From positions 620,001 through 684,000 of the forward strand of contig NZ_JTEO01000004.1 in the NCBI RefSeq assembly GCF_024500045.1: a DNA stretch of 64,000 nucleotides. Reading direction: 5' to 3'. A program made the position numbers and the translations under genes. The notes under the pieces are model-generated. The model was given only the letters and a program-made list of their open reading frames with translations. It made no database searches and was not told the DNA's origin. Positions 1 to 64,000 of this stretch are shown here, piece after piece (within the stretch, counting starts at the first letter, position 1; every line of letters starts with the position of its first letter). The stretch comes from Methanolobus chelungpuianus. Lineage in GTDB: Archaea > Halobacteriota > Methanosarcinia > Methanosarcinales > Methanosarcinaceae.

Positions 1-273
1 ATGGGAGTGCGCCTGTGCAGTTCCTACATGCGTGTGGTCAATGAGTTCCTCGGGATCAATCTTTCCATCGGTGACCCCACGATGGATGTCAACATGGAGG
101 GAGTATCCGATTTCATAAAGAAGGAGATAGGCCAGCTGGCTGACGAGTTCATAGTCGTCAAGGGGGAATGCTATATCCCATCCACCAACTCCAGGAACGA
201 ATTCAACATGCTCTTCGAGCCTGAGGCCAGTGACATCATTATGGCTGCTATCATGAAAAAAATGATGGGATGA
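1..273 (+). CDS. CheC-family phosphatase, C-terminal part (cut by window edge)
   Basis: The 90 visible residues align by eye with the second half of the CheC proteins further on: a helix following the second active site (SSYMRVVNEFLGI), a Pro/Asp turn, a helix like IKKEIGQLADEF, and a closing strand-helix LFEPEASDIIMAAI that matches the LFDPESMDRI end of the CheC at 3281. CheC proteins dephosphorylate CheY-P in the cytoplasm. The first base happens to be an ATG, but both active-site helices are missing, so the gene almost certainly begins upstream of the window. It ends one base before the next start, which suggests co-translation with the FtsA-like gene. Confidence 0.6.
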   Translation: MGVRLCSSYMRVVNEFLGINLSIGDPTMDVNMEGVSDFIKKEIGQLADEFIVVKGECYIPSTNSRNEFNMLFEPEASDIIMAAIMKKMMG

Positions 274-274
274 A

Positions 275-47287: not shown

Positions 47288-47359
47288 GGGCTTGTAGATC
47301 AGGGGTAGATCGTTACGTTCGCAACGTAAAGGCCGCGGGTTCAAATCCCGCCGAGTCCA
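47288..47359 (+). tRNA. tRNA-Ala (anticodon CGC)
   Basis: A full cloverleaf: acceptor gggcttg paired with cgagtcc including a G3-U70 pair (the alanine identity mark), D stem gatc/gatc, anticodon stem ttacg/cgtaa with loop ttcgcaa (anticodon cgc), and T stem gcggg/cccgc with loop ttcaaat. The discriminator is A and no CCA is encoded. No intron is seen. It marks the boundary between core genes and AT-rich accessory DNA. Confidence 0.93.
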
Positions 47360-47877
47360 CTAAAATAGTTTAGATAGTCCTAGTTTGATGGTGTTTTCAG
47401 TTAATTTAGAACAATAGTAAAGATAATCTCCTCGAGATATATAGACAATGAATCCCCATGACTCGTAAATTACCTTCCGTAGTCTTATTTTAACATTATA
47501 GTATGATATCTCAAAAAACGAGAACATTCTCTATATGATAATGCTCTGACAATAATATCAAAGATTTAGTGTACTTTATCTTCTCTATCAGAAAAACTTC
47601 GGCCTCTACAGGATAGAAGTAACCCTTTTCTGAATATTATAAGGCCAAGGGAAAAGTGCATTTTCTGAAAGGAGGATTATTACCTAATATTGAAGCTTCA
47701 TTTAAAATATTAAACGTTTAATCAATAGATAATACAATAAGACTAATATATTTAATATTGCATAATATATGTAGATTCTCTTGGAGAAAATGACAAACAG
47801 ATTAAAATACAACTTAAAAGTTAAAGAAAAAAGTGTAGTAATTCTTGTGGTGTTATTGTTATGGTGGATGTATATAT
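47360..47877. other. AT-rich gap after tRNA-Ala
   Basis: 518 bases without a supported gene, much more AT-rich than the DNA to the left. It contains a 14-bp perfect palindrome (attaaacgtttaat, 47709-47722), about 155 bases before the three-gene operon, and possible TATA runs near 47795. No second copy of the tRNA end is visible here. Confidence 0.6.
47709..47722. repeat. 14-bp perfect palindrome
   Basis: attaaacgtttaat is fully self-complementary. It could be an operator upstream of the unknown operon, but in AT-rich DNA chance is not excluded. Confidence 0.4.
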
Positions 47878-48465
47878 ATGCTGATGAAGTTAGCAATATT
47901 TGAAGATGTCAGCTTAGAAGATGATATTAAAAAATGTTGCAAGAAGAATAATACTCTTTATATTCCACTCATGAATAATCTTTTTGGCTTGCTAGCAGAG
48001 AGTTCTAATTTATCCTATGGATCTGAAGATTCAAGTCACGAAAATGAAACTAATGTTACAGAGTTTGTAGAAACATATAAGTGTACGCTTAAATCACTCG
48101 AAGCAAGAAAATCATTTTTTACTTCTAGACCAAAAGTAGTCTATAATGGTAAGATATTAGACAATAGATTTTTCAGAAATATCATTTCTTACTGTCAAGA
48201 AAAAAAAATGGATTTTTACTATGCGATAATACGCGATTCTACAGGTGATGAAGACAGATTTAATGAGATAGATCAGGTTAAATCCTATTTCGCTGAAAAT
48301 GAAAGAGCGATTTTCATACGGGTGGGATTTTGTATAGATGGAGAAACTCTCATCTTTTCTAGACGTGGCTATATAAACTATTCAGGTGATCTTCAGAGTT
48401 TCAATAATAAAAAAGAAGAACTCCTTACAATGCTAAAAACGGGACTTGAGAACAATCATGATTAA
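47878..48465 (+). CDS. Unknown-operon protein 1 (soluble)
   Basis: About 195 residues from ATG 47878 (MLMKLAIFED); the frame extends to 47845 but ggtgg lies ten bases before 47878, and 47884 is also possible. No family is recognised. The protein looks soluble, with a polar, Cys-poor C-terminal half (DFYYAIIRDSTGDEDRF, then AIFIRVGFCIDGETLIF) that may be alpha/beta. It is the first of three genes with overlapping ends, and its base composition differs from the core genome. Confidence 0.7.
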   Translation: MLMKLAIFEDVSLEDDIKKCCKKNNTLYIPLMNNLFGLLAESSNLSYGSEDSSHENETNVTEFVETYKCTLKSLEARKSFFTSRPKVVYNGKILDNRFFRNIISYCQEKKMDFYYAIIRDSTGDEDRFNEIDQVKSYFAENERAIFIRVGFCIDGETLIFSRRGYINYSGDLQSFNNKKEELLTMLKTGLENNHD

Positions 48466-49099
48466 GTCAATCATTGAGTCTCTAAGTGATTTCTTGACTT
48501 TGTTAGTGGTTGTTTGGGGTGTCGTGTCTTTTGTCGATGATATCTCAGATATGAGTCCCCTAATCACAAAATATGAGTATTTAATAAAGATGATACTGTC
48601 TTTGATTTTTGTTATAATAGTAATGTATAACTCAATTGTAAAAAATGCATTTTTAATTCAATATCGAATTCCAAGTAAGCCTATGTCTCTCGATTTATCT
48701 AAAAGGGTATTCGAAAATCAGGAAACTATAGAGTTAACAATTAGTAAAGAAAAAGAGAATAGCATATGGCTTCGGTTTCTTGGATTCATTGGATTTGATA
48801 CATTCTTAAAATGGGAATATCCCATCGGAACCAATATTGATATGGAAAGAGATTATACGGAATTCAAGAAAGTTGAATCTGAGGATAAGTTACAAAGCAA
48901 AGTAGCTCAAGCAAAAATAAAGCTAACTGGTAGAAGACAATTAACATTAAATACTTTTCTGGAATCTAATACAAGTTTTGTTGGGAAAGACTTTTTACAC
49001 CTAAAAATATATATCGGACCTAAGTCTAAATATCTTCGATGCATAATAAAGTTTGAATTGTGCAAACAGTCAATTGAAATATTACCATATAACGGATGA
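48458..49099 (+). CDS. Unknown-operon protein 2 (two-span membrane protein)
   Basis: About 213 residues from ATG 48458 (MIKSIIESLS), overlapping the stop of gene 1 by eight bases. Two hydrophobic helices (about LTLLVVVWGVVSFV and MILSLIFVIIVMYN) lead to a cytoplasmic or exposed domain of about 140 residues rich in beta patterns (IELTISKEKENSIWLRF, KIKLTGRRQLTLNTF, LRCIIKFELC). This two-helix plus beta-domain plan occurs in some membrane-acting defence effectors, but no motif proves it. Confidence 0.7.
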   Translation: MIKSIIESLSDFLTLLVVVWGVVSFVDDISDMSPLITKYEYLIKMILSLIFVIIVMYNSIVKNAFLIQYRIPSKPMSLDLSKRVFENQETIELTISKEKENSIWLRFLGFIGFDTFLKWEYPIGTNIDMERDYTEFKKVESEDKLQSKVAQAKIKLTGRRQLTLNTFLESNTSFVGKDFLHLKIYIGPKSKYLRCIIKFELCKQSIEILPYNG

Positions 49100-49986
49100 T
49101 TCTAATGACTTCTATAGCAGATATAATTCCATTATGGAGCAAAGGTATAAACTTTAAAGCATATTCTATTGACAAAAACTTAGAATACGATCAAATTGAG
49201 AAAACATTAAAGCAGTTTAATGGAAATTTGAAGGAACAAAAAGAAGGTTGGCTCACAGACTATCCATATATCAACGATGGGAAAACGATATCTTTTGTGT
49301 ACACACGTTTTGTAAATGATTCAAAGGCATCTCGTGTAGTTAATTATAACGTGCAAGTTCCAGATTCCGTGGGATGCTATTTTTATAAAGACAAAAAGAT
49401 ACTCATTGTTTCAACTGCAAGCGATTCCAAGATAAATGGGTTAGTAAGAAAAAAAATGTTTTCTGCAATTAATATTCTTGCAGAACCAAAATCTGTAGAA
49501 TATTCAACCGATTTTCTTTTCTGGCTTGCATATAAACATGATATTGAAGGAATGAAGATTACCAATCACTTGAAAGTTGAAAGTGTAAAGGCTATATCAA
49601 GTGAGTTTGAAAAAACGAATCTAAGTGGCGCTGTAAGCTCAAACAGTAATGTTACTGATCATATTCAAGCTCAAATTATGCTTGCAATTTATGGTTTTGT
49701 AAATGGTGCAGAAGTAACATTTAACCATAAAGATGCTAAGTATTCTTTTAAGATTTCTGCAGACGGCAGGATAAGTGCTGGAATTCCTTCTACAGTTGAA
49801 AACAAAGAAGATAAGGCACAATTTGCTTTAATGATTCATAGCATCTTACAAGAGACCTATAAGATATATGAAATGGATAAAGACTCAGTTAAATGGGAAG
49901 AAAAGAAGAAACATTATCGATGCAATAAACTTGACAAATGTTCCAAGAGCATCCAAGACTTTAAGAAGCAAATGATGAACAACTAA
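49096..49986 (+). CDS. Unknown-operon protein 3 (soluble)
   Basis: About 296 residues; it overlaps gene 2 by four bases (atga), with another ATG at 49105. Features: a central YSTDFLFWLAYKHDIEGM segment and a C-terminal Lys/Cys-rich tail (KKKHYRCNKLDKCSKSI). No nucleotidyltransferase, nuclease or ATPase motif is seen. The tight coupling to genes 1 and 2 says the three act together. Confidence 0.7.
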   Translation: MILMTSIADIIPLWSKGINFKAYSIDKNLEYDQIEKTLKQFNGNLKEQKEGWLTDYPYINDGKTISFVYTRFVNDSKASRVVNYNVQVPDSVGCYFYKDKKILIVSTASDSKINGLVRKKMFSAINILAEPKSVEYSTDFLFWLAYKHDIEGMKITNHLKVESVKAISSEFEKTNLSGAVSSNSNVTDHIQAQIMLAIYGFVNGAEVTFNHKDAKYSFKISADGRISAGIPSTVENKEDKAQFALMIHSILQETYKIYEMDKDSVKWEEKKKHYRCNKLDKCSKSIQDFKKQMMNN

Positions 49987-50271: not shown

Positions 50272-50988
50272 TCAGTAAATCCAGTTCACATGGCTAACTG
50301 GCAACTGATTTAACTTGTTCTTATAAAACTGCCATTTCGGCATGAATCTGTCCATGAGAACGATAAAGTTTGAGTTATGTGTTGGTTCCAGAAGATGAGA
50401 TAACTCGTGCACTACAATATATTCTAGACATTCAGATGGCTTCTTAGCAAGTTCTGTGTTAAGTAAAATATTACCTGCCTTAGGATTACAGCTTCCCCAC
50501 TTTGTTTTCATCCTTCTTATGAGTAAACGTTCCACTTTAATGCCCATTAGCTTCTCCCATTTGGCGATCAAGGGCAATGCAGCTTTCCTGAGTTGTTCCC
50601 GATACCATGCATCGATAACTTCCTGTTTCTTGTTCTCATCAGCTCCGGGACGTACTCTTAAAATCATCTTTTTGTGCTTCAACTCAACAGATGGTGCTTC
50701 ATCTACTTCAAGAACCTCAAGCAGGTAACGTTTCCCCCATACATAATGACTCTCACGGTCTAGATACTCGCGTGGAGTTTCTCGCTCCTGTTCCTGGAGC
50801 TTTTTCTGTTGCTGTTTTATCCATCCAAGTTTAGAAATTGCAAAGATGCGAATTTTGTCTATGTCCATCCTTAAAGGAGCAGATATTCTGACTTTTCCAG
50901 TGGGTGGGTAAACACTTAGGTGTATGTTCTTAATATCCTTGAAGACTACGTCTGCTGTAATCTCTCCCAGTTGGATCTGAGTGACCAT
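50272..50988 (-). CDS. YgjP-like metallopeptidase (M48 type)
   Basis: 238 residues with the zinc-protease motif VVHELSHLLEPTHNSNF (HExxH plus a downstream His) near residue 200, and the WGSCNPKAGNILLN stretch before it, both typical of the YgjP/DUF45 family. Genes of this family often sit next to hsdR; their target is not known. Its start overlaps the hsdR stop by one base. Confidence 0.88.
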   Translation of the reverse strand: MVTQIQLGEITADVVFKDIKNIHLSVYPPTGKVRISAPLRMDIDKIRIFAISKLGWIKQQQKKLQEQERETPREYLDRESHYVWGKRYLLEVLEVDEAPSVELKHKKMILRVRPGADENKKQEVIDAWYREQLRKAALPLIAKWEKLMGIKVERLLIRRMKTKWGSCNPKAGNILLNTELAKKPSECLEYIVVHELSHLLEPTHNSNFIVLMDRFMPKWQFYKNKLNQLPVSHVNWIY

Positions 50989-53900
50989 CAGTATTCCTTC
51001 TGCGCTTTGATTATAAGGAAGATACGCTCCACTTCATCCGTATTTTGCAGGATTTCATACAAAGCTTGCTTAATGGTCCTTTCCCGCGGTTCCACACCTC
51101 GCCAATCATCTGACCTGACACTTCTCACAGTTTCATCGATCTTTATTGCAAGATCAAGAACAAAGTCTTCTGAAGATGCATATGCTGAGATCCCTTCTGC
51201 CAAGATAGCAGAGTTTTCCCTGAAGGGCTGCAGATTATTATAGAGCGCACGCAGTGCAGGGCTTGCCTTGAGCTGCTGGGGTGTGTTATCCTCATGTCCT
51301 GCCTCGACTTTCTTTACAAGCTCGGCAATCTGCCGCAGGTATTCTTCATACTCTATCGCTTTGGCCTTCCTGGCTGCTATTATCTCGTCCAAGAGAGCTG
51401 ACATCTTCTCATAGAAGGCAGGGTCGTTCAGGTGTTCCTTAATTATCCTGCTGCGGACATTGTTCTCAATGGTCTCTGCGATGGCATTTTTGTTTCCTTT
51501 CAGTCCGTTTAGCTGGGTATCGATGGCTTTGTTGATGCCACTTTTTACAATAAGCTCAAGGAGCGGGATAGTGTCAAAGGATGAGACTTTCCTGGGCTCG
51601 GCTGCCTCTATGTAAGTGTCGATGAGATGACGCATATCAGCCTCGTAGGCTTTCAGGTCGAGTGTTTCGCCACTGGCACGGCGTATTATCTCACGGATGT
51701 TCAGGTAATAGTCTATCTGTTGTCTTATGCGGGCTATACCTGCTTCACTGTACCCGGCAGACTCCAGTTCGTCAGAAATGTTGGCGAAGGCACGGACCAG
51801 TGAGGCTGTGGCCTTGTAGAGGGCTGCACGCTGTGTCTCACGTTCCTGCAGGTCAGTTGGTATCTCAGTGTTGCCGCAGAAGTAATGAATGTGCTCGAGC
51901 TCGCCTTTTGGTGGTTCTACAGGCTCGCATAACAGGAAAAGTTCCTCCAGCGCATTATCAAGACGTTCCCTGCCTTTCTTGAGGCGATCCTGCATTAAAA
52001 CCTCTGGATTGGCACCGCCTGCGCTGTGGTCCAGTTCGGAAGAGTAAACCTGAAGGGCTCCTGTGCCCTTGTCGTTGACAAGGTTCTTGAAAAGGTCCTT
52101 GTAGTCCACGATGTAGCCAAAGTCCTTGTCCTCGCCGTCAAGCCGGTTAGTGCGGCAGATCGCCTGGAAAAGCCCATGATCCCTCATTGACTTGTCAATA
52201 TAGAGATAGGTGCATGGTGGTGCATCAAAGCCGGTGAGGAGTTTGTCTACCACGATAAGCAACTTCATGTTTGCCGGTTCCTTGGTAAACAGGGCTTTTG
52301 CCCTCTCTTCGTAGGTCTCGGTCTTTGTCATGCTTGGCGCGGTATCGATGTCCTTGAGAAGCTCTGTATAGGTGTTGTAGAGGAACTGTTTCTCGGTCTC
52401 GGTGTTGGCACCGGTATCCTCTTTTGTCACATCCTGTGTCTGTGGGTTGTAGGATGTCACCACGGCACATCTGCCTTTAAAAAGTGTTTTCTGGAACAGG
52501 GAGAAGTACTTGCAGGCCTCATAGATGCTTGATGCCACAAGTATGGCATTGCCACGTTCGCTGGACAGGCGAGGCTTTACATTGAAATCAAATATTATGT
52601 CGCTCACCACTCGGTCCATTCGGGAGCGTGAGCTGAGCACCTTCTGCATGGTACCCCAGTGATTCTTCAGCTCATCCTTCTGCCAATCATTAAGGCCCTT
52701 TGTCTTTGCCTCGAACCATGCGTCGATTTTCTCCCCTGAGCCAAGGCGCTGGTCGATATCGCGCGCTTCGTAGACTAGGTCAAGCACTACCTTGTCCTCT
52801 ACAGCCTCGCAGAACTTGTAGGTGTGGATGTAGCCGCCGAAGACTTCCAGGCTTGTCTGCTTGTCCTTCTTGAGCAGCGGTGTGCCGGTGAAGCCTATGA
52901 AGACTGCATTAGGCATTATCGCCTTCATGGTTGTGTTCAGTTTTCCACTCTGGGTACGATGGCATTCATCCACGAAGATGAAGACCTCTCCCACAGTTTT
53001 GCTTGGCTGTGCCTTCAGGTCCCTGATGAAAGCATCGAAATCATCAACTCCCTTACGACCGAACTTGTGGACCAGGGAGCATATCAGGCGTGGTGTTGCC
53101 TGGCCGAGCAGGTTCAGAAGCTCCTGGCCACTGGTGGTGCGCCTGATCTTCTCGCCGGCTTCCCTGAACACTCCCTCGATCTGCTTGTCCAGTTCATCGC
53201 GATCTGTGACAATGACAACCCTAGCGTTGGGATTGTTTTCCAATATCCATTTAGCCAGAAGTACCATGACAATACTTTTACCACTGCCCTGGGTGTGCCA
53301 GATTATACCGCTCTTGTGCTGCCTTACATGCCTCTGTGCAGCCTTGACACCGAAATACTGGTGCACCCTGGGCAGTTTCTTGACACCGCCATCAAAGAGC
53401 ACGAAGTCATACATCAGCTCGATGAGCCGGTCCTTACGGCACATCTTCAACAGGTATTTGTCGAGCTTGAACCGGCTGTCGTCCTCCTCGTCTTCTTTCC
53501 ATTTGAGGAAGTACTTCTCAGGTGTGCCGATCGTGCCGTATCTTAAGCCCTCGGAATCGTTGCCTGCAAAGATGAACTGTACGGTACTGAAGAACCATTC
53601 GTTGAACTCAGGCTTCTGGTTGGAGATATTCTGCCTGATGCCATCTCCGATACTCACCCTGCTGTTCTTCAGCTCCAGCACCCCTACTGCAATACCGTTA
53701 ACATAGAGCACGATATCAGGCCGACGCTCGTGATTGCCCCGTAGCGTGACCTCCTCGGCAATTGCGAAGTCGTTCTTCTCCGGCTCCTGCCAGTTAATGA
53801 GCTGAACACTCTCTGTACATTCATCCACCTCAGTCTTCACAGGCACACCATAGCGCAGCAGGTTGTAGATAGCCTGGTTATTGCCGTAAAGACTCCGGCT

Positions 53901-54116
53901 GTGATTGTCAGCTTCTGTGCGCACGCGGTACAGTGCCATACCGATCTGCTTTTTGGTGTAGCCGTTCTTTTCCAGCCATGTGCCGAGCAGTCCTTCCTCG
54001 ATGTTGCTGTTGTTGTCGCGGTCGGTCCAGTCCCCAAGGTAACGATAGTTAAGTTCGTCCCGGAAAAGGGAAACGATGCGGTTCTGGGTGACTCGTTCAG
54101 GCTGGCCGATTTTCAT
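50988..54116 (-). CDS. hsdR: Type I restriction enzyme HsdR subunit
   Basis: 1042 residues. It cuts DNA after ATP-driven translocation. The N-terminal nuclease carries RRPDIVLYVNGIAVGVLELK (D...E-x-K) near residues 130-155; the helicase motor has IIWHTQGSGKSIVM (Walker A) and VFIFVDECHRTQ (DECH box), then the motif TGTPLLK; a long helical C-terminus binds the HsdM/HsdS core. A good ggagg site precedes the ATG, inside the end of the remnant gene. Confidence 0.95.
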   Translation of the reverse strand: MKIGQPERVTQNRIVSLFRDELNYRYLGDWTDRDNNSNIEEGLLGTWLEKNGYTKKQIGMALYRVRTEADNHSRSLYGNNQAIYNLLRYGVPVKTEVDECTESVQLINWQEPEKNDFAIAEEVTLRGNHERRPDIVLYVNGIAVGVLELKNSRVSIGDGIRQNISNQKPEFNEWFFSTVQFIFAGNDSEGLRYGTIGTPEKYFLKWKEDEEDDSRFKLDKYLLKMCRKDRLIELMYDFVLFDGGVKKLPRVHQYFGVKAAQRHVRQHKSGIIWHTQGSGKSIVMVLLAKWILENNPNARVVIVTDRDELDKQIEGVFREAGEKIRRTTSGQELLNLLGQATPRLICSLVHKFGRKGVDDFDAFIRDLKAQPSKTVGEVFIFVDECHRTQSGKLNTTMKAIMPNAVFIGFTGTPLLKKDKQTSLEVFGGYIHTYKFCEAVEDKVVLDLVYEARDIDQRLGSGEKIDAWFEAKTKGLNDWQKDELKNHWGTMQKVLSSRSRMDRVVSDIIFDFNVKPRLSSERGNAILVASSIYEACKYFSLFQKTLFKGRCAVVTSYNPQTQDVTKEDTGANTETEKQFLYNTYTELLKDIDTAPSMTKTETYEERAKALFTKEPANMKLLIVVDKLLTGFDAPPCTYLYIDKSMRDHGLFQAICRTNRLDGEDKDFGYIVDYKDLFKNLVNDKGTGALQVYSSELDHSAGGANPEVLMQDRLKKGRERLDNALEELFLLCEPVEPPKGELEHIHYFCGNTEIPTDLQERETQRAALYKATASLVRAFANISDELESAGYSEAGIARIRQQIDYYLNIREIIRRASGETLDLKAYEADMRHLIDTYIEAAEPRKVSSFDTIPLLELIVKSGINKAIDTQLNGLKGNKNAIAETIENNVRSRIIKEHLNDPAFYEKMSALLDEIIAARKAKAIEYEEYLRQIAELVKKVEAGHEDNTPQQLKASPALRALYNNLQPFRENSAILAEGISAYASSEDFVLDLAIKIDETVRSVRSDDWRGVEPRERTIKQALYEILQNTDEVERIFLIIKAQKEY

Positions 54117-54361
54117 TACTGTGCCTCCAATGCTAAGAAATCAGGTTTTGCCCGGATCATGGACATCATCCTGTCTCTGGTAGTAATTGGGATAGTATTT
54201 GGGGTAGCGATTGGGACAGTACTGCCCCAATCAAGAAAGGTTGTACGCATATGGGCAGGATTTGCCTGGAACGTCAGCATGAAACCTGCCATCCAAAAAT
54301 CATATTCTAGAGGCTGTATGCTACAGCATTCTATCCATTCAACCTGCTGATTCTCTTTCAT
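54116..54361 (-). pseudogene. Internally deleted RecG/AlbA_2-like ATP-binding gene
   Basis: An 81-codon frame beginning MKENQQVEWIE, the standard opening of AlbA_2-domain/RecG-like ATP-binding proteins, then jumping straight to sequence like the C-terminal end of that family: PLEYDFWMAGFMLTFQA followed by PITTRDRMMSMIRAKP, resembling the TT-repeat and winged-helix linker. The roughly 300 residues normally between are missing, and the final helix-turn-helix is cut short. The start overlaps the hsdS stop and the stop overlaps hsdR, so the remnant still links the two genes translationally. Confidence 0.6.
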
Positions 54362-55605
54362 ACCAATCGAATCCTCCCTGTAAGCAGCTCCCGCATCATT
54401 CCCTGCTTCACCCTGCGGCTCTTTTCAAGTTTCTCTTCCAGCGCGGCGATCTCCGCATCCATGTCTGAAAGGACGGTGGCTATGCGAACCTGGTTATCCA
54501 TTGATGGTAGCAGTACTGGATAATTTCCCACAGCGGCTTGTGATAGTCCAAAAAATGTAGTTCCGGATTTACTTTCCTCGACGAAACTTTTGAACCGCTG
54601 AGAGCACAATTGATAATACAAATACTTCGGATTGTAGCTATCTTTGATTGGACGGAAAAGAAGCAAATGGCTGTTAAGTGAGGCTTTGTGTGGGTAGGGA
54701 ATTGTGTCGATGTAAAGAACTTTGCCGATTGTGCCGTCTTTAGTCATGAGCACATCAGAAGGTCTTAGTTGAATATCACTTGCAATTTCATAGCGGGATT
54801 CAGAAACGTGATACACGTCGTTCCACCTAATTGCTCCGTCTTTGAAGTTCATACCTGTGATTAAGAATGGATCTTCTTCATTGGTAGTGAACTCTATTTG
54901 CTTCAATCCCTGCCATCCAATTCGTCCTTTCAAGGAGGACACTTCTCGTAGCAATCGTATGATATCTCCTTGCTTTGGACGGAGTAACTCCTGCATAGCA
55001 CCCTGCTTGATCTGGAGTTTCTTGGCGATTAGCTGCTCCAGTGATTCGATAAGTGTACCAGCATCGGTTAGTGCTTGGGCAATGGCTTCTTGTTCAGCCA
55101 CAGGCGGAACTGGAATCTGTATTGAATTACAATTATTTTTATTTAAGTAAGAAACAGATGTTTTGGTTGCCAAACCTTCAATCTGGAATCTTTGTGCTGG
55201 AATGACATTCAATAGGAATGATGCATTTATTTGTGAAGTAGGGATAAAAGCATGTAACTGTTGATTAATCACAATTTCATTAGTAGTAATTGCTGTAATG
55301 CCAAGCTCTCCAGCACATGACATCAAAACCGAACCACTTGGAACAACTTTTGAGCCTATAGATCGTGCCTCATCTCTCGAAATACATAAACCTATTCTAG
55401 AACTAGTTACGTTTCTTCCATTATCCAAATCAGGTATCGTAATCCAAGGTATTTCACCATCGAAATTTCGCGGTTTATTACGCCCAGGAACTATGAAATC
55501 ACAAACTTCTCCAACTCTTCTTACAGTCCAATCCTTTGGTATGACTCCAATCTCAGTCTGCTTATATCCCTGGGGGATACTCTCGGTAACACATTCTGCA
55601 CTCAT
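54358..55605 (-). CDS. hsdS: Type I specificity subunit HsdS, copy 1
   Basis: 415 residues with two target-recognition domains separated by conserved helices: the first half ends with EQEAIAQALTDAGTLIESLEQ and IKQGAMQELL, the second with ATVLSDMDAEIAALEEKLEKS and VKQGMMRELL. HsdS sets the DNA sequence recognised by the methylase and nuclease. The opening (SIPQGYKQTEIGVIPKDW) is nearly repeated at the start of copy 2. Confidence 0.93.
   Translation of the reverse strand: MSAECVTESIPQGYKQTEIGVIPKDWTVRRVGEVCDFIVPGRNKPRNFDGEIPWITIPDLDNGRNVTSSRIGLCISRDEARSIGSKVVPSGSVLMSCAGELGITAITTNEIVINQQLHAFIPTSQINASFLLNVIPAQRFQIEGLATKTSVSYLNKNNCNSIQIPVPPVAEQEAIAQALTDAGTLIESLEQLIAKKLQIKQGAMQELLRPKQGDIIRLLREVSSLKGRIGWQGLKQIEFTTNEEDPFLITGMNFKDGAIRWNDVYHVSESRYEIASDIQLRPSDVLMTKDGTIGKVLYIDTIPYPHKASLNSHLLLFRPIKDSYNPKYLYYQLCSQRFKSFVEESKSGTTFFGLSQAAVGNYPVLLPSMDNQVRIATVLSDMDAEIAALEEKLEKSRRVKQGMMRELLTGRIRLV
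54991..55100. repeat. hsdS central repeat, unit 1
   Basis: The DNA encoding the central helices of hsdS copy 1 is closely repeated at about 56280-56390 in copy 2 (for example gcaccctgctt and gagctg-tccagtgattcgat). Such repeats let target domains be exchanged by recombination. Confidence 0.6.
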
Positions 55606-56930
55606 ACTAATCGAATCTTCCCTACGAGTAGCTCCTGCATCATACCCTGTTTGATACTACGGCTCTTTTCGAGTTCCTCCTCAAGCATGGTAATCTCAGC
55701 ATCCATATCAGAGAGAATACATGCTATTGCTTCTTGTTCTGCAAGAGTGGATGGCAATGGCAATAGTATCTTTCCAAGAGTTTTCGCACCGATATTCGGC
55801 GGATCTGTTCCTGCCATTGCTTCATTCATAGCCTCAACAAAACGGGACATCTGCAATTCATAGTAAATAAAATTCAAATTAGCGGTATGTTTAGTAACTA
55901 TTTTTGCTACTCGTTGGTTGAGTAAGCATGGTAAGTCATTACTAGTCAGTTTTGCAATTTTTAGCTCACCATCTAAAATGGGACGAGTAAGAGCCATAAC
56001 TACATCGCCTTTTTGAAGCAAATAAGATTGGTACTCTCTAATGTAGGATGAAGGTAAAAAAGAGATTTCATTCCACATTATCTTTCTTTTGCCAACATTA
56101 GCTATTTTCAACCAGCGAACTCCATTTGGCACTGTAGCCTCACTTTTAAAAGCATTTCCACCAAAATAAGTAACAACTACAGCAGATTCTACACATTCCC
56201 AATCTTCTGGGACGAGTCCCAATTCTGTCTGCTTGTATCCCCTTTTAATCTCAAATCCCGGCAGCCGCCTCTTCCCCGTCAGCAACTCCTGCATAGCACC
56301 CTGCTTAATCTGGCGTTTCTTGGCGATGAGCTGTTCCAGTGATTCGATGAGGGCATCAGCATCGCTTAGTGCTTGGGCGATGGCTTCTTGTTCGGCTATG
56401 GCTGGTGGAAGTGGAACTGTGAAATGAAGCATGTCTCCAACATTCAAATGTTTCATTGTCGTTCCAGTTTCAATTAGCTTTAGACGAGAGCGGCCGGGTT
56501 TACTGTTGAGGTAATAAGAAATGAATGCTGAAAATGATTTTCTTTTGTCAAACCTTGAAATGATTAGTGCATGACAATTTGAACCTGCTAACGATTCTGG
56601 GACGATTGTGGTCAGCCCCACGTCTCCAGTCTGCACAGTGAGCAAATCACCGCCTTTTAAACATGATTTCATGTGTGCGTTGTGAAAATCTTCAGTCACA
56701 AACTTTATTCCGTGAAAGTTAAACGAATTCTCTTCCACATTGTAGCCTTGGATGTAGAGAATTCCATTATCATTACTTGCATAATGTGTCGTAGCAGTTC
56801 CAACAAAACCATTAGTCATTAGTACTGTCAGACTGCCAAGAGTAGGAGTTTGCCAATCCTCCGGTATCACTCCCATCTCAGTCTGCTTGTATCCGGCCGG
56901 GATGCTCTCAGCAACGCATTCAGAGGTCAT
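55602..56930 (-). CDS. hsdS: Type I specificity subunit HsdS, copy 2
   Basis: 442 residues, same plan: SIPAGYKQTEMGVIPEDW at the start, EQEAIAQALSDADALIESLEQ and IKQGAMQELLTGKRRLPGFE in the middle, a second GYKQTELGLVPEDW before target domain 2, and ACILSDMDAEITMLEEELEKS at the end. The target domains differ from copy 1 and are more AT-rich, so it should recognise another sequence. It overlaps copy 1 by four bases. Confidence 0.93.
   Translation of the reverse strand: MTSECVAESIPAGYKQTEMGVIPEDWQTPTLGSLTVLMTNGFVGTATTHYASNDNGILYIQGYNVEENSFNFHGIKFVTEDFHNAHMKSCLKGGDLLTVQTGDVGLTTIVPESLAGSNCHALIISRFDKRKSFSAFISYYLNSKPGRSRLKLIETGTTMKHLNVGDMLHFTVPLPPAIAEQEAIAQALSDADALIESLEQLIAKKRQIKQGAMQELLTGKRRLPGFEIKRGYKQTELGLVPEDWECVESAVVVTYFGGNAFKSEATVPNGVRWLKIANVGKRKIMWNEISFLPSSYIREYQSYLLQKGDVVMALTRPILDGELKIAKLTSNDLPCLLNQRVAKIVTKHTANLNFIYYELQMSRFVEAMNEAMAGTDPPNIGAKTLGKILLPLPSTLAEQEAIACILSDMDAEITMLEEELEKSRSIKQGMMQELLVGKIRLV
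56280..56390. repeat. hsdS central repeat, unit 2
   Basis: Second copy of the hsdS central-helix repeat. Related 3' helix repeats lie at about 54380-54470 and 55621-55720, and 5' start repeats at about 55554-55605, 56210-56250 and 56876-56930. Confidence 0.6.
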
Positions 56931-58086
56931 GTGTACTTGCCTCCAATTCTTTCTCTATCTTCTCCAGCTGCGCCTTCAATTCCGCCTTGGACGGAAGGTA
57001 GAGCTGGTATTTAGGGGCGAAGATGTTAGCTTCTTTTGGCAGGGTCAGTTCGACCAGTGCATCGTTCTTACGGCGGCAGAGGATAATGCCGATGGTGGGG
57101 AGTTCGTCGGCGGTCTTAACATGGCGGTCAAAGTAGTTCACATACATCTGCATCTGGCCAAGGTCCTGGTGGGTGAGCTTGTCACGCTTCAGGTCAATAA
57201 GCACGTAGCAGCGCAGGAGCCGGTTGTAGAAAACAAGGTCTACGTAGAAGTGGTCATTGTCGAAGGTAAAGCGCTTCTGTCGGCCCTCGAAAAGGAAGCC
57301 TTTGCCAAGCTCCAGCAGGAAAGTTTCCAGCCTGTCGATGATAGCAGATTCCAGGTCGTTCTCTGACCAGTAGGGTCGCTCCTCAAGACCAAGGAATTCA
57401 AGGACCAGAGGATTCTTGATCAGGTCCACCGCCTTCTCAACCACAAGCCCCTGTTCTGCGAGCCTGCGTATCTCTTCCTTGTTGCGGCTCAGAGCCAGCC
57501 GTTCGTAAAGCGAACTTGAGATCTGCCGCTCCAGTTCCCGCACGCTCCAGTGGTTCTGCGTGGCCTCTATCTCATAGAAACGGCGCTCATTATTATTCTC
57601 AATAGTCATCAGAGTCACATAATGTGACCAGCCAAGAGAGAAGCGCTTAAGCAACTCCATCATAACATTCTGCCATGAATCTGCTTTCAAAACAGTCCAC
57701 TCAGATATCGCAGACGGTGTCTGCGATATTGGCAGCAATCCTTCAGACAGGAGTTTTGCATCTTCTATTCCGAATTCCGCAGACATTGTCTGCGAAATCT
57801 TTCTCTGCATCAGGTAGAACTTCCGGCATTGTTCAAGAGTTCTGACAGAAAAGCCTCGCCCTAGTTGTTCTCCTAGTTCGTCGGACAACTGCTTCATGAG
57901 GCCAGCACCATATTCTGCCCTGTCCCCTCCGTTTTGCTCATACTCTACTATATACCATCCAAAAAGCCAGTTGCGTATCACCAGATGTATATCCACGGAG
58001 CGCCCCGCACGCCGCTGCATCTCCTGATGCGTCTGCATACAGAGATTGACCAGTTGCTTGAAGCCGTAGTCATTACCTTCGCTCAT
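56920..58086 (-). CDS. DUF1016 (YhcG-like) PD-(D/E)xK nuclease
   Basis: 388 residues in two parts: an N-terminal helical DUF1016 region (HLVIRNWLFGWYIVEYEQNG, RGFSVRTLEQCRKFYLMQRK) and a C-terminal nuclease core with FYVDLVFYNRLLRCYVLIDLK followed by a Gln helix (DLGQMQMYVNYF), matching the D...D-x-K pattern. The family is common inside type I restriction operons; its precise role there is not settled. It overlaps hsdS copy 2 by 11 bases and hsdM by 4. Confidence 0.93.
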   Translation of the reverse strand: MSEGNDYGFKQLVNLCMQTHQEMQRRAGRSVDIHLVIRNWLFGWYIVEYEQNGGDRAEYGAGLMKQLSDELGEQLGRGFSVRTLEQCRKFYLMQRKISQTMSAEFGIEDAKLLSEGLLPISQTPSAISEWTVLKADSWQNVMMELLKRFSLGWSHYVTLMTIENNNERRFYEIEATQNHWSVRELERQISSSLYERLALSRNKEEIRRLAEQGLVVEKAVDLIKNPLVLEFLGLEERPYWSENDLESAIIDRLETFLLELGKGFLFEGRQKRFTFDNDHFYVDLVFYNRLLRCYVLIDLKRDKLTHQDLGQMQMYVNYFDRHVKTADELPTIGIILCRRKNDALVELTLPKEANIFAPKYQLYLPSKAELKAQLEKIEKELEASTHDL

Positions 58087-60479
58087 ATCTTGAATCCCAT
58101 CCTCTCCAGGTGTCCTTTTACTTTAGCCTCCAGCTCAGCCACACGCTCGGTCATCTGTGGCAGCGGAGTTTCATACCTCTCTGACAGCTCTTTCACACGC
58201 TGAGTCAGAGACTGGCTAATTCGATCCATCTCTCCGTGGACAGCAGCATCCAATGCAGAGAGCCATTTATCATCAACTACCAGCGACTTGATCTCGTCCT
58301 CTGAGAGCCTAGGATACTGTGAATAGGCTTTTGCATCGAGGGCTGCCTCTGCATCCTTGACCTTCTTTCTCAGGTCTGCCTCATCGTTGGCTAGTTTCAG
58401 CCATTCATTAAGCACTGCAGCTTCATCCTTAGCCTCCCGGTCACCTTTGATCTCCTTCAGGCGGGCGCTGACACTTGCCTTGTTCACCTTGTCGAGTTCA
58501 GAAAAGGCACCTTCTTCCCCGCCTTGCTCCTCTTCCAGTTCAGTCCTGCTGGCAGTAACACTTTCCAGTTCGGCTGTGAGCCGGTCGATTTCCTCCTGCT
58601 CTTTAGAAAAATAACGGGCCACGATAAGCTCCTTGGGAACAAGGTCGCATGTCCAGCCCTTGTCCTTCTCCTTGCCCTTCTTGTCCTTCTCGATGATGCG
58701 GTAGGTCTGGGCCTTCCAGCCATCGGCGGAGATCATATAGCAGTCATCCTGCATGGTCTCAGCCCAATAGTCCATCAGGTGCTGATACACATCATAGTGG
58801 TTGATCAGCGGCTTACCTGTGTAATGTGCCAGCAGGCCCTCAGAAAGTTCAGCTATGATCTCCTTGGGATGGTTTTCAGCTTTCAACTGCTTCAGCATGG
58901 CAGAGAATCTTTCACGCCACTGGGCAAAGTGTACATTCATCCCGGCAATGAAGGCAGCAAACTCCGGGTGTTCATATATCGTGGATTTGATAGCAGACTT
59001 ATCCACAGTAAGTTCTAGGTATCCAGGCCGCATATCCCTGAACAGAGCCACACGAAGGTGCGGGCAGACATCCCAGTAACGCTTGAGAGCATCGATATCA
59101 GCACAGGGGATACCTCCATGCAAGTGGCCTTCGATGTCCTGCAGGTCCTCAGCCTGCTGACTGTCAATGTAACGCGGGAGGTTAAGATTGAACTCATTCT
59201 TCTCGATCTCCTCAAGGCTTACCATACGTGAATATTTAGGGACTTCAGTCTGTTTTGTGAAAACATCCACGATCTTATGTATATCCTGGGAACGCAGGCG
59301 GTTCTTGGGTCCGTCCTTCATGAAACCGGCACTTGCATCTATCATGAAGATTCCCTTGCGGTTGTGTGCATTCTCCTTGTCAATGACAATAATACAAGCA
59401 GGGATACCAGTACCATAGAAGAGGTTCGCAGGAAGGCCTATAATACCCTTGATGTATCCCTTGCGCACCAGCGCGCGCCGGATGTCAGCCTCAGCGTTAC
59501 CACGGAACAACACACCGTGCGGCAGGATACAGGCACCTTTACCCGTACTCTTAAGTGAGCGAACAATGTGGAGCAGGTAGGCATAATCTCCCTGCTTGGC
59601 AGGAGGGACTCCGAAAGGCTTGAAACGCTCATGCTCGTCCTTAAGCGGATCAAGTCCCGTACTCCACCGCTTGTCACTGAAGGGAGGATTTGCCACGACA
59701 TAATCAAAGGTCTTGAGCGTCTCTCCGTCCTTGAACTTCGGGTCAGCCAGCGTATTCCCCTGAACTATAAGTGCTTCAGGGTTGTTGTGCAGAATCATGT
59801 TCATTCTGGCCAGACCGGATGTGGCAGAGTCTTTCTCCTGTCCATAAAGGGTGATCTTTGTCCTTGCCTCATCTGCGACCTTCAAGAGCAACGAGCCTGA
59901 ACCACATGTCGGATCATAGGCTGTGGTGGAGCTTGTAGTCTCTGCCTGACGGATACCAAGGATCTGTGCTATAATACGGCTAACCTCAGCAGGCGTGTAG
60001 AACTGCCCTTTGCTCTTGCCGCTCTCCGTTGCAAAGTGCCGCATAAGGTACTCGTAGGCATCTCCAAGGATATCATCGCCTTCTGCGCGGTTCTTCGAGA
60101 AGTCAAGTGCCGGGTTCTCAAAGATCGATATGAGATTGGTAAGCCTGTCAACCTGCTCCTTACCACTGCCAAGCTTATTGGTGTCGTTAAAGTCCGGCAT
60201 GTCGGAAAGTTTGTTGGCACTGACCAGAGGGCCTATTATCTTCTTGTTGATCTGATCGCCGATATCCGGCTTGCCCTTGAGTGCAACCATGTCCTTGAAG
60301 CTTGAACCTGTTGGAATGGTAATGGGTGCGTAGGGCTGACCAGCGTATTTGTCACTGACGTACTTAATGAAAAGCAGCACAAGCACGTAGTCCTTGTACT
60401 GGCTGGCGTCCATACCGCCGCGCAGTTCGTCACAACTGGACCAGAGGGAAGAATAAAGTTCGGATTTTTTCAGGGCCAT
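58083..60479 (-). CDS. hsdM: Type I DNA adenine methylase HsdM
   Basis: 798 residues. It methylates adenine at the HsdS target to protect host DNA. SAM-binding TAYDPTCGSGSLLLKV (near residue 190) and catalytic YVVANPPFSDKRW (near 250) are clear. An unusually long C-terminal region (about 600-798) is charged and coiled-coil-like, with ELEEEQGGEEGAFSELDK and RVAELEAKVKGHLERM. It is the first gene of the operon; gggtga precedes the ATG and TATA-like runs lie 100-190 bases upstream. Confidence 0.95.
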   Translation of the reverse strand: MALKKSELYSSLWSSCDELRGGMDASQYKDYVLVLLFIKYVSDKYAGQPYAPITIPTGSSFKDMVALKGKPDIGDQINKKIIGPLVSANKLSDMPDFNDTNKLGSGKEQVDRLTNLISIFENPALDFSKNRAEGDDILGDAYEYLMRHFATESGKSKGQFYTPAEVSRIIAQILGIRQAETTSSTTAYDPTCGSGSLLLKVADEARTKITLYGQEKDSATSGLARMNMILHNNPEALIVQGNTLADPKFKDGETLKTFDYVVANPPFSDKRWSTGLDPLKDEHERFKPFGVPPAKQGDYAYLLHIVRSLKSTGKGACILPHGVLFRGNAEADIRRALVRKGYIKGIIGLPANLFYGTGIPACIIVIDKENAHNRKGIFMIDASAGFMKDGPKNRLRSQDIHKIVDVFTKQTEVPKYSRMVSLEEIEKNEFNLNLPRYIDSQQAEDLQDIEGHLHGGIPCADIDALKRYWDVCPHLRVALFRDMRPGYLELTVDKSAIKSTIYEHPEFAAFIAGMNVHFAQWRERFSAMLKQLKAENHPKEIIAELSEGLLAHYTGKPLINHYDVYQHLMDYWAETMQDDCYMISADGWKAQTYRIIEKDKKGKEKDKGWTCDLVPKELIVARYFSKEQEEIDRLTAELESVTASRTELEEEQGGEEGAFSELDKVNKASVSARLKEIKGDREAKDEAAVLNEWLKLANDEADLRKKVKDAEAALDAKAYSQYPRLSEDEIKSLVVDDKWLSALDAAVHGEMDRISQSLTQRVKELSERYETPLPQMTERVAELEAKVKGHLERMGFKI

Positions 60480-60729
60480 TTTACGTCACCCGTAAATGCA
60501 ATTTGAAGTGGCTTATTGAACGCGAAATTGAACTAGTAAACGAGATTTGTTTTACTTTACTATTCATTAGTGATTTTCATCCTTTTCCGTGTTTAGTAAT
60601 AGCCAATTACAGTGGAAAGTAATAAGTGTGTTCTTTTTACTTAGAATATTATATTCTCTTTCTAAAAACTATATAGGGTGTTAATAAACTCTACGATTTT
60701 TTGCTATTGCCCTCCTATAAGGTGAAAGT

Positions 60730-61002
60730 TCAAGCAGTAAGCCCTTTGTTTTCTTCAGAAACAACTTTCGTAGACTCATTAGAACAAGGCATAAACCTAT
60801 TAAAGTACTCTCGATAACACTTATCGCACCGGTGCACTACATGCCCGTCAGTCAATAGTGACTGATTAGATGCAGTATTGGAGCCACAACCTGCACATTG
60901 AGTGTCCAACTTCTCTTGAGCTAATTGACAATGTTGGAAGTGTGGTATATCTAAATCTAGTTTTATCTGTGTATAATAACAATTGATGAACTCATTTAAA
61001 AC
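60730..61002 (-). CDS. Zinc-finger reading frame, possibly truncated
   Basis: Minus-strand frame open from 61002 with no ATG; the first usable start is a TTG at 60909 (59 residues, starting just before DTQCAGCG). It reads ...CAGCGSNTASNQSLL...VHRCDKCYREYFNRF and ends SEENKGLTA, with a C-x2-C...C-x2-C zinc ribbon. The upstream in-frame sequence (FINCYYTQIKLDLDIPHFQ) looks coding too, so the 5' end may have been lost. Confidence 0.4.
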   Translation of the reverse strand, partial: VLNEFINCYYTQIKLDLDIPHFQHCQLAQEKLDTQCAGCGSNTASNQSLLTDGHVVHRCDKCYREYFNRFMPCSNESTKVVSEENKGLTA

Positions 61003-61175
61003 CTATTTTGTAGTCACTTAGTGAGTTAAGTGTTATACTGAACAAATAACATGTGTAAACAGGTTTTCAATTTTATTTACTTAATCAGTGATGAGAGAAG
61101 GAGAATTTTTGAACAATCTAGACTAATTTGACAGAAAATACCGTATTATTGCCGCATTATTTCCAAATTACTGAT

Positions 61176-61200
61176 GAATTATTGACGAATTATTGACGAA
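61176..61200. repeat. 11-bp tandem direct repeat
   Basis: gaattattgac occurs twice in direct tandem, followed by a third start (gaat), with a looser match just upstream. Short direct repeats beside a replication gene are typical of iterons. Confidence 0.5.
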
Positions 61201-61229
61201 TATCTCTTGACAATAAATGAAAGCATCAA

Positions 61230-61259
61230 GCTCATTCCAGTAAATTCCTTGGAATGAGC
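61230..61259. repeat. 10-bp inverted repeat with 10-base loop
   Basis: gctcattcca and tggaatgagc are perfectly complementary. There is no adjacent U-tract, so an operator or origin element is more likely than a terminator. Confidence 0.55.
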
Positions 61260-61328
61260 ATAAGCAAATCTGAGAGTGCTTGTTTCGGGAATTCAGGCTA
61301 TAATATTGTACAGACTCTTATCATTATA

Positions 61329-61378
61329 GCACTATCACTTATCCAGTTAAGTGGAACTGCCACTTTTGAAGATAGTGC
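61329..61378. repeat. Nested inverted repeats
   Basis: Outer arms gcactatc and gatagtgc enclose an inner hairpin aagtgg-aactg-ccactt (61349-61365). It lies about 60 bases past the stop of the primase-polymerase gene. Confidence 0.5.
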
Positions 61379-61438
61379 ATCCTCTGAATTTGACATTCTA
61401 ACTATTGATGGGTAACATCAAGTCATCGTACCTCTAAC

Positions 61439-63910
61439 TCATTTGAAAACATTTTCTTGTAGATTAGTGTCACCTTGGCACCTAATGTCACCGAGCTGAT
61501 ATCTTGTCAAGGTGACAGGAGAAGCGCTAGCATCCTCCTCGGTACATGGAGGTGTCACCTTCTCTCTAGAAGACAAGGAAATATCTACTGGTGATAAGGT
61601 ATTATCTCTTTTATCGTCTACTACTATACTATTTTCTATATTATGGAGATATGGATTAGTAATGTGGTCTTCAATTATCGTTTCATCTATCACCTTTTCA
61701 GATGTGATACCCTGGTGATAACTGGGTGATAGAGTGTCATTGTATGCCTTGTCAAAATCTTCAAAGAACTTAGACAAACAATTTTGTAGATTATTCATAT
61801 CAATGACAGCAAACTTAGCATACTTGTTAAAGTCCTCAGTACCATAATAGAGATAGGAGTTTAATTTTTGCCTCTCGTCTTCATCAATTTTTTTATCTGT
61901 GTTTTCCCAGTTGATTTGGACTTTGCTTGTCAGACCGGACTTCCCATCCTTACCGTGCAAAATATTACGTACTGCAGTTTTTCCTACGCCAAAGTGCTTG
62001 ACTAGTTGAGCAATAGTGACACTTGCAGGATATTGCGTATTTTTTGTTGGATACCTGACTTTGTTATTTTGCTCTATGAAATATTGTAAATATTCAAGCT
62101 CCTTTCGTGTTAACTGTGTAGCATTGCTGTCAGCTGACATTGAATATATAGAGATGGCTCTTTCAAAGTCTTCAAGTGTAGCAAAATAAACGCCGTTCTT
62201 TTCCTCTCGCTGGAAGACTTTATAGAGGCAACATGACCTAATCATATCTAGGAATTTTTTTATGTTCCGCAGTTTGGTCTTATCTGCCAGCTTAATTGCC
62301 TTTGCATAAGGGATAAGAATCTCGTAGTCTTTAGCTGATAAGATGTCGTAAATGCATCTACATACCTGCACATCAAAATCACTATAGTCAAATCGGCAGA
62401 CCTCGGAGTCAAGTATGAAATCGGCCACTTTCTCAAGATGGTTAAAATCATTTTTGGTATCAAGTAGTACAAAGCGGTCTGCCATCTGGTCATCGTTGAT
62501 ACCGTTAACACTATTAATAAAAAAAACTTGTCTTTCTGGTGCTTCTAGATCCATGCTCTTACCATTGATCACGGTACCGTGTTTGATTCTCTCTTGGAAG
62601 TTTGAAGTTATCTTCTTGATGGTGTTTACTTGATCCTCATTTGAGTCGTCGTCATCAAGAATATTAATCCTCCTAGGAGTTGCCTTCTTATCATAATACA
62701 TTTTCTTAGCTGACATTGAGCTATTTAAAATGAAACGTGGAGGTAACAGATGAATACATTTATCAAAAGCATCACTCTTCCCTGTACCTTTGTCTCCTGA
62801 TATCTTTACATGCAGGCCCCGTGTATTCGAGATAAACATACTTGCTGCAGCAAGTAAACAACTCCATATAATAGACTCGTCTCCAAGATGGCGCTTTCCA
62901 AATGTATCTCGGATGAACTGTGCAGGATCTCCTTTGTAAAGAATGTCATATGCTGTTTTTAAAACTTCCTGGGGATAAGCTTTGATAATATCCTCTATTA
63001 TCAATTGCTCAGTAACATGATCTCTTTTCTCTGTTACTGGTGTGTACTTTTCTGTCAGGCCATCTATGGCCTTCTTGATGGTGTTCTTTAGGTAAGTAGG
63101 ATGTGTATCCCACTTACTACGATCAAGACTTGACATCCTCATGAGTCTCTCAACTTGACTTTCGTCCTGTGTGTAAAAAGAGATGTAGTTAGCAATACCC
63201 AGATCCGCTTCGCTTGCAGACGGATACGTACTTGTAGAGCCTTCCCACAAAGGTTTAAACTTATCTGCTATTGCAGACCCAAATAACAACGAAAGTATCT
63301 CATTGTCTTCCATAGAGGGACTTTCACTAATTACACTCTGTGGAAACTTGTTTAGATTATCTTTTGGTTTGTCGATTTTATCATAGATGGCTTTAAGAGC
63401 TTCAACAGGTGCATAGTTAATGGTTTTTGGTGTCTCCGGAAGGTGTTGTCCTGTCATTACAAAGAAACGTCCTTGGTCATACATCTCTCTGGGACCAGAT
63501 CTGCAACGATTGTTACTGGGTTTCTTGCCTTTACAGATTACATGTGCACCCTTTCCACTCTGGGAAACCTCAGCATAGCTTTCTAAAAGGAGAATCTCCT
63601 GATAAATATCTTCATCAAATTCCCCTGTCTCCTGGTTTCTTACGTTGTCCCAGTCAATACCTACATAGTCATCGTCGCAAGAAAAAACAAATCCAATGCC
63701 ATGATACAAACCCGTATCCAGAGCTTTAATGCATGCATCAAAGGTGGACCAAGTTGTTGGTTTGTCTGTCGAGGCCTCGAAATTATCGACAGTATAAGGA
63801 ACCTTTCGGGGCTTATTTTCCCCTTTCTTTGAAATCAACTTCCACATTACCCACTGGTCATGCTCCTTCATCTCTTGTGGTATGCCGTCAATATTAGGGA
63901 GAAAATCCAC
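61439..63910 (-). CDS. NrS-1-type primase-polymerase with SF3-like helicase
   Basis: 823 residues starting with GTG, nine bases after ggggag. The N-terminus (MKEHDQWVMWKLISKKGENK, then PRKVPYTV, FSCDDDYVGIDWDNV and HVICKGKKP) matches primase-polymerases of the NrS-1 phage type, with the DxD-like acidic pair as metal site. The middle holds an ATPase: ISGDKGTGKSDAFDK (Walker A, about 370), RRINILDDDDSN (Walker B) and FFINSVNG. The C-terminus has a winged-helix-like QLVKHFGVGKTAVRNIL segment. It should start and extend DNA chains for a phage or plasmid-like element. Confidence 0.8.
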   Translation of the reverse strand: MDFLPNIDGIPQEMKEHDQWVMWKLISKKGENKPRKVPYTVDNFEASTDKPTTWSTFDACIKALDTGLYHGIGFVFSCDDDYVGIDWDNVRNQETGEFDEDIYQEILLLESYAEVSQSGKGAHVICKGKKPSNNRCRSGPREMYDQGRFFVMTGQHLPETPKTINYAPVEALKAIYDKIDKPKDNLNKFPQSVISESPSMEDNEILSLLFGSAIADKFKPLWEGSTSTYPSASEADLGIANYISFYTQDESQVERLMRMSSLDRSKWDTHPTYLKNTIKKAIDGLTEKYTPVTEKRDHVTEQLIIEDIIKAYPQEVLKTAYDILYKGDPAQFIRDTFGKRHLGDESIIWSCLLAAASMFISNTRGLHVKISGDKGTGKSDAFDKCIHLLPPRFILNSSMSAKKMYYDKKATPRRINILDDDDSNEDQVNTIKKITSNFQERIKHGTVINGKSMDLEAPERQVFFINSVNGINDDQMADRFVLLDTKNDFNHLEKVADFILDSEVCRFDYSDFDVQVCRCIYDILSAKDYEILIPYAKAIKLADKTKLRNIKKFLDMIRSCCLYKVFQREEKNGVYFATLEDFERAISIYSMSADSNATQLTRKELEYLQYFIEQNNKVRYPTKNTQYPASVTIAQLVKHFGVGKTAVRNILHGKDGKSGLTSKVQINWENTDKKIDEDERQKLNSYLYYGTEDFNKYAKFAVIDMNNLQNCLSKFFEDFDKAYNDTLSPSYHQGITSEKVIDETIIEDHITNPYLHNIENSIVVDDKRDNTLSPVDISLSSREKVTPPCTEEDASASPVTLTRYQLGDIRCQGDTNLQENVFK

Positions 63911-63916
63911 TTCACA

Positions 63917-64000
63917 TCACTCCCCAGCAACTATACGTTTGGCCAAGTCTACAAATATCAGGAGTGTAGGGTTTGTAGCCTTTATCAAGTCATAAATTCG
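63917..64000 (-). CDS. C-terminal end of an upstream gene (cut by window edge)
   Basis: The last 27 codons of a minus-strand gene (...NPTLLIFVDLAKRIVAGE) are visible; its stop lies within the ribosome-binding region of the primase gene, so the two are in one operon. The fragment is too short to identify. Confidence 0.6.
   Translation of the reverse strand, partial: RIYDLIKATNPTLLIFVDLAKRIVAGE

Follow-up and report, generated by a model that had tools for sequence, protein, structure and literature searches.

On sequence evidence, the DNA analysed here (the window, a stretch of 64,000 nucleotides) harbors most of a tRNA-targeted integrative element that probably carries its own replication module, with iterons inside the end of the primase-polymerase (primpol) gene as the putative origin. 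The borders of the element, the empty counterpart of its site in a relative (G055), the intact integrase frame, the enzyme domains, and the iteron cluster with its recurrence in other genomes were computed directly.

Borders, insertion site and cargo

The element spans 19,433 bp, from 47347 to 66779 in window coordinates, and the window, which ends at 64000, stops inside it (Table 1). This length is based on a 15-bp direct repeat, on the empty site in G055 and on the spacing of the flanks in G046. The first copy of the repeat closes the tRNA-Ala(CGC) gene and the second, at the far border, sits 45 bp upstream of the integrase start. In G055, whose left flank is 94% identical to that of the window genome, the site is uninterrupted, and directly after the tRNA comes the sequence that here lies beyond the second repeat; the same flanks are 1.9 kb apart in G046, vs. 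22 kb in the window genome. The presence of mobile DNA at exactly the tRNA-Ala(CGC) site is close to certain, and the intact integrase, border repeat and empty site place it among the tRNA-gene/tyrosine-integrase elements. The host is a methanogen of the family Methanosarcinaceae with a genome of 2.6 Mb. A preliminary description had claimed an integrated mobile element, which the integrase and attachment repeat to the right of the window and the empty G055 site bear out; no capsid, relaxase or partition genes were identified in the element. About 0.6 kb immediately right of attR (L007:2780-3412), including a 166-aa ORF, are present here and absent from the empty site of G046, which may reflect an earlier insertion into this tRNA.

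Table 1. Features of the integrative element, in window coordinates (aa, amino acids)
Feature	Position	Strand	Remarks
tRNA-Ala(CGC)	47288..47361	+	left end of the element; ARAGORN
attL core CCCGCCGAGTCCACT	47347-47361		last 15 bp of tRNA-Ala(CGC)
Three overlapping genes	47845..49986	+	206, 217 and 296 aa; beside attL; no family match above cut-off
Type I restriction-modification cassette	50272..60479	-	complete; PADLOC, Pfam
YgjP-like metallopeptidase	50272-50988	-	type I cassette
HsdR	50988-54116	-	type I cassette
81-aa ORF	54116-54361	-	type I cassette
Two HsdS	54358-56930	-	type I cassette
PDC-S02 protein	56920-58086	-	type I cassette; putative PD-(D/E)XK
HsdM	58083-60479	-	type I cassette
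Detached Zn-ribbon ORF	60730..60909	-	59 aa
11-bp tandem repeat	61141..61201		5.5 copies, 78% match, AT-rich (69%); TRF
Perfect 10-bp-stem hairpin	61230-61259		
Nested inverted repeat	61329-61336/61371-61378		around 61349-61354/61360-61365
primpol	61439..63910	-	GTG start, 823 aa
primpol, N-terminal part	residues ~1-295		NrS-1-type AEP + HBD
primpol, central part	residues ~305-725		fusellovirus C674/A460-type AAA+ ATPase + wHTH
primpol, tail	residues 728-823		predicted disordered
Candidate origin	61468..61731	both	8 exact GGTGAYA iterons; last 300 bp of primpol gene
GGTGAYA iterons	61468, 61486, 61511, 61553, 61590, 61688, 61714, 61725	-, -, +, -, +, -, +, +	
Small gene upstream of primpol	63917 to 64189 (window part 63917..64000)	-	directly upstream; 90 aa; no Pfam match above cut-off
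Tyrosine integrase	65521-66720	-	399 aa; PF00589, E 4e-20; no stops; right of window
Second copy of CCCGCCGAGTCCACT	66765-66779		= L007:2765-2779; 15-bp direct repeat, far border

The cargo includes the type I cassette, in which the gene for the YgjP-like metallopeptidase lies directly downstream of hsdR. The three overlapping genes beside attL could be a defence or other cargo operon of an undescribed kind; the 296-aa product has a single relative in 112 family genomes (G075, 36%). Among the element genes annotated with Pfam and PADLOC, several small ORFs being without assignment, there are no identified virion genes and no relaxase or VirB4/TraD-type genes.

The primase-polymerase, its relatives and its modules

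Primpol had been described as a GTG-started NrS-1-type primase-polymerase with a P-loop part, of a kind that initiates replication, and this description holds: the NrS-1 HBD domain is detected (PF22763, E 5.6e-15), the Walker A motif reads GDKGTGKS, and the enzyme belongs to the primase class that starts replication. Its closest PDB sequence match is 7ola (E 9.6e-30), a staphylococcal SaPI primase-helicase, and NrS-1 polymerase is matched at E about 1e-21. In both cases the alignment runs over the AEP domain and takes in the catalytic and HBD residues. The DxD, SxSGxGxH and HBD R-x-K-W...Y residues are retained relative to NrS-1, of which the key residues and two recognition motifs have been described (PMC8718748), and these catalytic motifs together with the HBD make the protein an NrS-1-type AEP. 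The SF3 C-terminal helicase of NrS-1 is not found, as primpol has no D5/SF3 Pfam match. Compared by hhalign, the ATPase gives 0.5% with D5-type relatives, whereas the ATPase-wHTH module gives 97.8% with fusellovirus C674/A460 (E 9.9e-13, 307 columns); a fold search with the ATPase also retrieves A460 (E 5.8e-12). MCM helicases top the PDB fold search, yet the profile comparison reaches 65% over 71 columns only, and because this link is weak the ATPase is not filed as an MCM.

Relatives of primpol are encoded in 30 of the 112 family genomes, mostly with an integrase nearby, which in most loci is on the same strand; few came from scans of viral contigs and genome contigs. Three close elements are bounded by repeats of tRNA-Met (30 bp), tRNA-Arg (17 bp) and tRNA-Gly (15 bp), with sizes of 13.0, 12.0, and 12.1 kb, respectively. 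They have in common with the window element the integrase (53-71% identity), primpol and the small upstream gene, which is thus conserved in all four. Similarity between the enzymes can end abruptly: the first 308 residues of the window primpol share 60% identity with its G053 homologue, and beyond them the two proteins are unrelated. The AEP-HBD module is combined with three types of ATPase (fusellovirus-type, DUF3987 and D5/DUF5906) and the fusellovirus-type ATPase with three primases (NrS-1 AEP, DnaG/TOPRIM and PF09250), which indicates one element class that exchanges primase and helicase modules.

The end of the window enzyme leaves some room for a degraded element, in which primpol would have lost its C-terminal domain, by mutation or with the arrival of the restriction cassette, to become part of a non-replicating island. 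We give this reading limited weight. Unlike its G050 relative, the enzyme has no Zn ribbon at the C terminus and may therefore be impaired; a sequence with 56% identity to the G050 ribbon over 34 aa (E 7e-11) is encoded in the detached downstream ORF, ~530 bp away, and the stops in all frames between the two make partial decay possible. The downstream genes of relatives are likewise absent, with the restriction cassette in their place. However, the motifs of the AEP, HBD and ATPase are all intact, as are the integrase and the att sites, the iterons are well kept, and the C-terminal Zn ribbon is also missing from the G053 and G021 homologues.

An unlikely alternative is a virus satellite of the PICI kind, which would excise, replicate with its own primase-helicase and depend on a helper virus for packaging. 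The size of ~19 kb, the integrase, the fused primase-helicase, the putative 3′ iteron origin and the lack of identified virion genes match PICIs (PMC6092414), the best PDB match points the same way, and satellites have been proposed for this class (Makarova et al., 2014). Furthermore, the related G053 element (tRNA-Met) has genes for a large terminase (E 4.6e-111) and a tape-measure-like protein (6e-7) (L039, 3890-8819) and also encodes a Doc-like protein, with no portal or capsid among its proteins scanned, and may be a truncated provirus or a satellite. Against a satellite, G053 may be no more than a truncated provirus, and neither a helper virus nor genes for a terminase or for capsid remodelling were identified for the window element.

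Iterons in the gene end and the downstream region

The eight exact copies of GGTGAYA lie within 264 bp, where 0.10 would be expected from the rest of the window, and a scan for two-strand 8-mers ranks them as the strongest repeat cluster of the 64 kb (z 6.8). They fall in all three reading frames, and none of 200 synonymous-codon shuffles of the gene reaches the cluster. Two groups of iterons flank a spacer (61597-61687) with 71% AT, a richness equalled by 1.8% of the 91-mers in the primpol gene. The DNA concerned encodes the protein tail and, with this tail predicted to be disordered, may be freer to carry sites.

In relatives, this position is occupied by other iteron words (ACTGATAC in G050, AACTAAAC in G053, GAATTCTG in L064 and TATTACAA in L054), which in some cases form two opposed arrays; the window iterons, in mixed orientations, are less neatly arranged than those of G050 or L064. 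A 3′-end cluster occurs in 11 of 39 primase/helicase genes vs. 3 of 197 control genes (Fisher p 1.7e-7, an optimistic value because the compared sequences are related). The thresholds for a cluster were set during the analysis, and the words were picked after the data had been seen, albeit with shuffled nulls and control genes for comparison. All 12 D5-helicase types lack a clear cluster at the gene end, as do haloarchaeal plasmid relatives, which have a stand-alone AEP and no helicase. Of the bacterial phages with this primase, two lactobacillus phages have a cluster directly 3′ of the gene, strong in one and weak in the other, and three others have none at the gene end. In phage P4, used as a positive control, the same scan ranks crr first and also finds ori; the annotated type 1 repeats of crr are directly 3′ of alpha. 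Two-orientation repeat clusters (AACTAATC, AGCTAATC) are also present at the 3′ ends of other genes at or close to primpol loci (L055:10063-11737 and an ORF adjoining primpol in L063), where they may be origins that belong to a second replication gene.

The preliminary description had placed a candidate origin downstream of the gene, at 60480-61440, in some 960 non-coding bases with an 11-bp tandem repeat, a perfect 10-bp stem and a nested inverted repeat. All three repeats are present and the gap measures 959 bp, but it is not simply non-coding, as it contains the Zn-ribbon ORF. The tandem repeat is a possible accessory unwinding element. An origin in the stem-loop and AT-repeat part of this region (60980-61438) is improbable: its position and structure resemble pRN1 (PMC4234260), its 211-nt stretch with both hairpins folds more stably than 200 of 200 shuffles (z -3.8), its 11-bp repeats are AT-rich and structured segments occur at the gene ends of several D5/SF3-type relatives, but a DNA search of the 112 family genomes yields no homologue, with only 22-35 bp matches that we take as chance, no such gap follows primpol in the close relatives G050 and G053, and one part of the region resembles a gene end that became detached. 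A lack of conservation of the repeats had itself been named as grounds for giving up this proposal, and for these repeats that is what the 112 genomes show. The stem-loop was also rejected as a conserved origin of the window-type group: windows with a structure z below -3 (~2.4% of the baseline windows and 5% of the 3′ windows) are not enriched at window-type 3′ ends and are neither rare nor position-conserved. An Rfam scan of 60400-64000 gave nothing. Judged by these patterns in the DNA, the GGTGAYA cluster in the primpol 3′ end is a better origin candidate than the 959-bp region and the best current hypothesis.

With the iterons as origin, excision, iteron binding, initiation and autonomous replication would proceed as follows. 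The integrase would recombine the two 15-bp tRNA-Ala repeats and release a 19.4-kb circle. The primase-polymerase/AAA+ protein would then bind, probably via the wHTH, the GGTGAYA iterons that its own gene carries at the 3′ end, melt the AT-rich segment between the two groups and prime DNA synthesis, leaving host enzymes to complete the copying. Finally, the element would reintegrate or pass on, with the type I restriction-modification system aboard. A broader and rather doubtful generalization is a family of methanogen elements, possibly restriction-carrying virus satellites, that replicate from iterons within the 3′ coding part of a modular AEP/AAA+ initiator gene, with primase and ATPase modules swapped and each tail co-evolving with its own iteron word.

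Comparison with known systems

Like NrS-1 polymerase (PMC7102993, PMC8718748), the window enzyme combines an AEP with a SxSGxGxH loop and an HBD with the key R/K/Y residues; unlike it, the window enzyme ends in an ATPase of the fusellovirus C674/A460 kind, where NrS-1 has an SF3 helicase. The preliminary description took the element to be undescribed in this group, which is incorrect as far as the class is concerned. Methanogens and other archaea have been reported to carry integrated elements of small size that encode a primase-helicase-HTH-Zn-finger protein, and the arCOG07809 elements were proposed to be integrated satellite viruses and linked to ASV1 C674 (Makarova et al., 2014, PMC4158269). 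The window element resembles the Mpal_2033 type, a likeness drawn from its published description, in its integrase, its primase + helicase + HTH protein, its methanogen host and the lack of identified virion genes (PMC4158269), and its ATPase is related to C674 by the profile comparison given above. Of the four domains, primase, helicase and HTH are fused in the window enzyme and the Zn ribbon is detached, whereas in G050 it is fused. The window element further differs in its 10 kb of type I restriction cargo, and an origin candidate made of iterons is found in it. If the present reading is right, it gives the 2014 prediction of satellite-like elements in methanogens exact borders and a concrete origin hypothesis.

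In the Sulfolobus plasmid pRN1, a small gene likewise precedes the primpol-helicase-wHTH gene (orf56/orf904) and the origin is on the 3′ side of the latter. However, pRN1 needs for its replication a 100-nt stem-loop that is 54 bp downstream of its primpol gene, and its authors reported no iterons (PMC4234260), whereas those of the window element are within the gene end. D5-type primpol genes (L046, L049, L045, L051, L060) have strongly folded segments (z -3.8 to -6.6) at or near the stop codon, a place at which window-type relatives carry iterons. These structured gene ends of D5/SF3-type relatives are more like pRN1, and terminators could explain them.

By analogy, the window layout is most like that of PICI origins. 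PICIs/SaPIs and P4 share with the window element an integrase, a fused primase-helicase and iterons in both orientations at or just after the end of the initiator gene, and the P4 iteron GGTGAACA resembles GGTGAYA. In PICIs, the origin directly follows the 3′ end of rep and has an AT-rich region between two sets of iterons (PMC6092414); the putative origin in the window differs in that its iterons lie inside the gene end, not after it. The P4 alpha primase is of a different type (TOPRIM, PMC4234260), and the window element has an archaeal host and no evidence of helper packaging. If the proposed origin is correct, it would provide a compact origin-plus-initiator cassette for Methanosarcinaceae and extend the PICI/P4-type origin layout to archaea.
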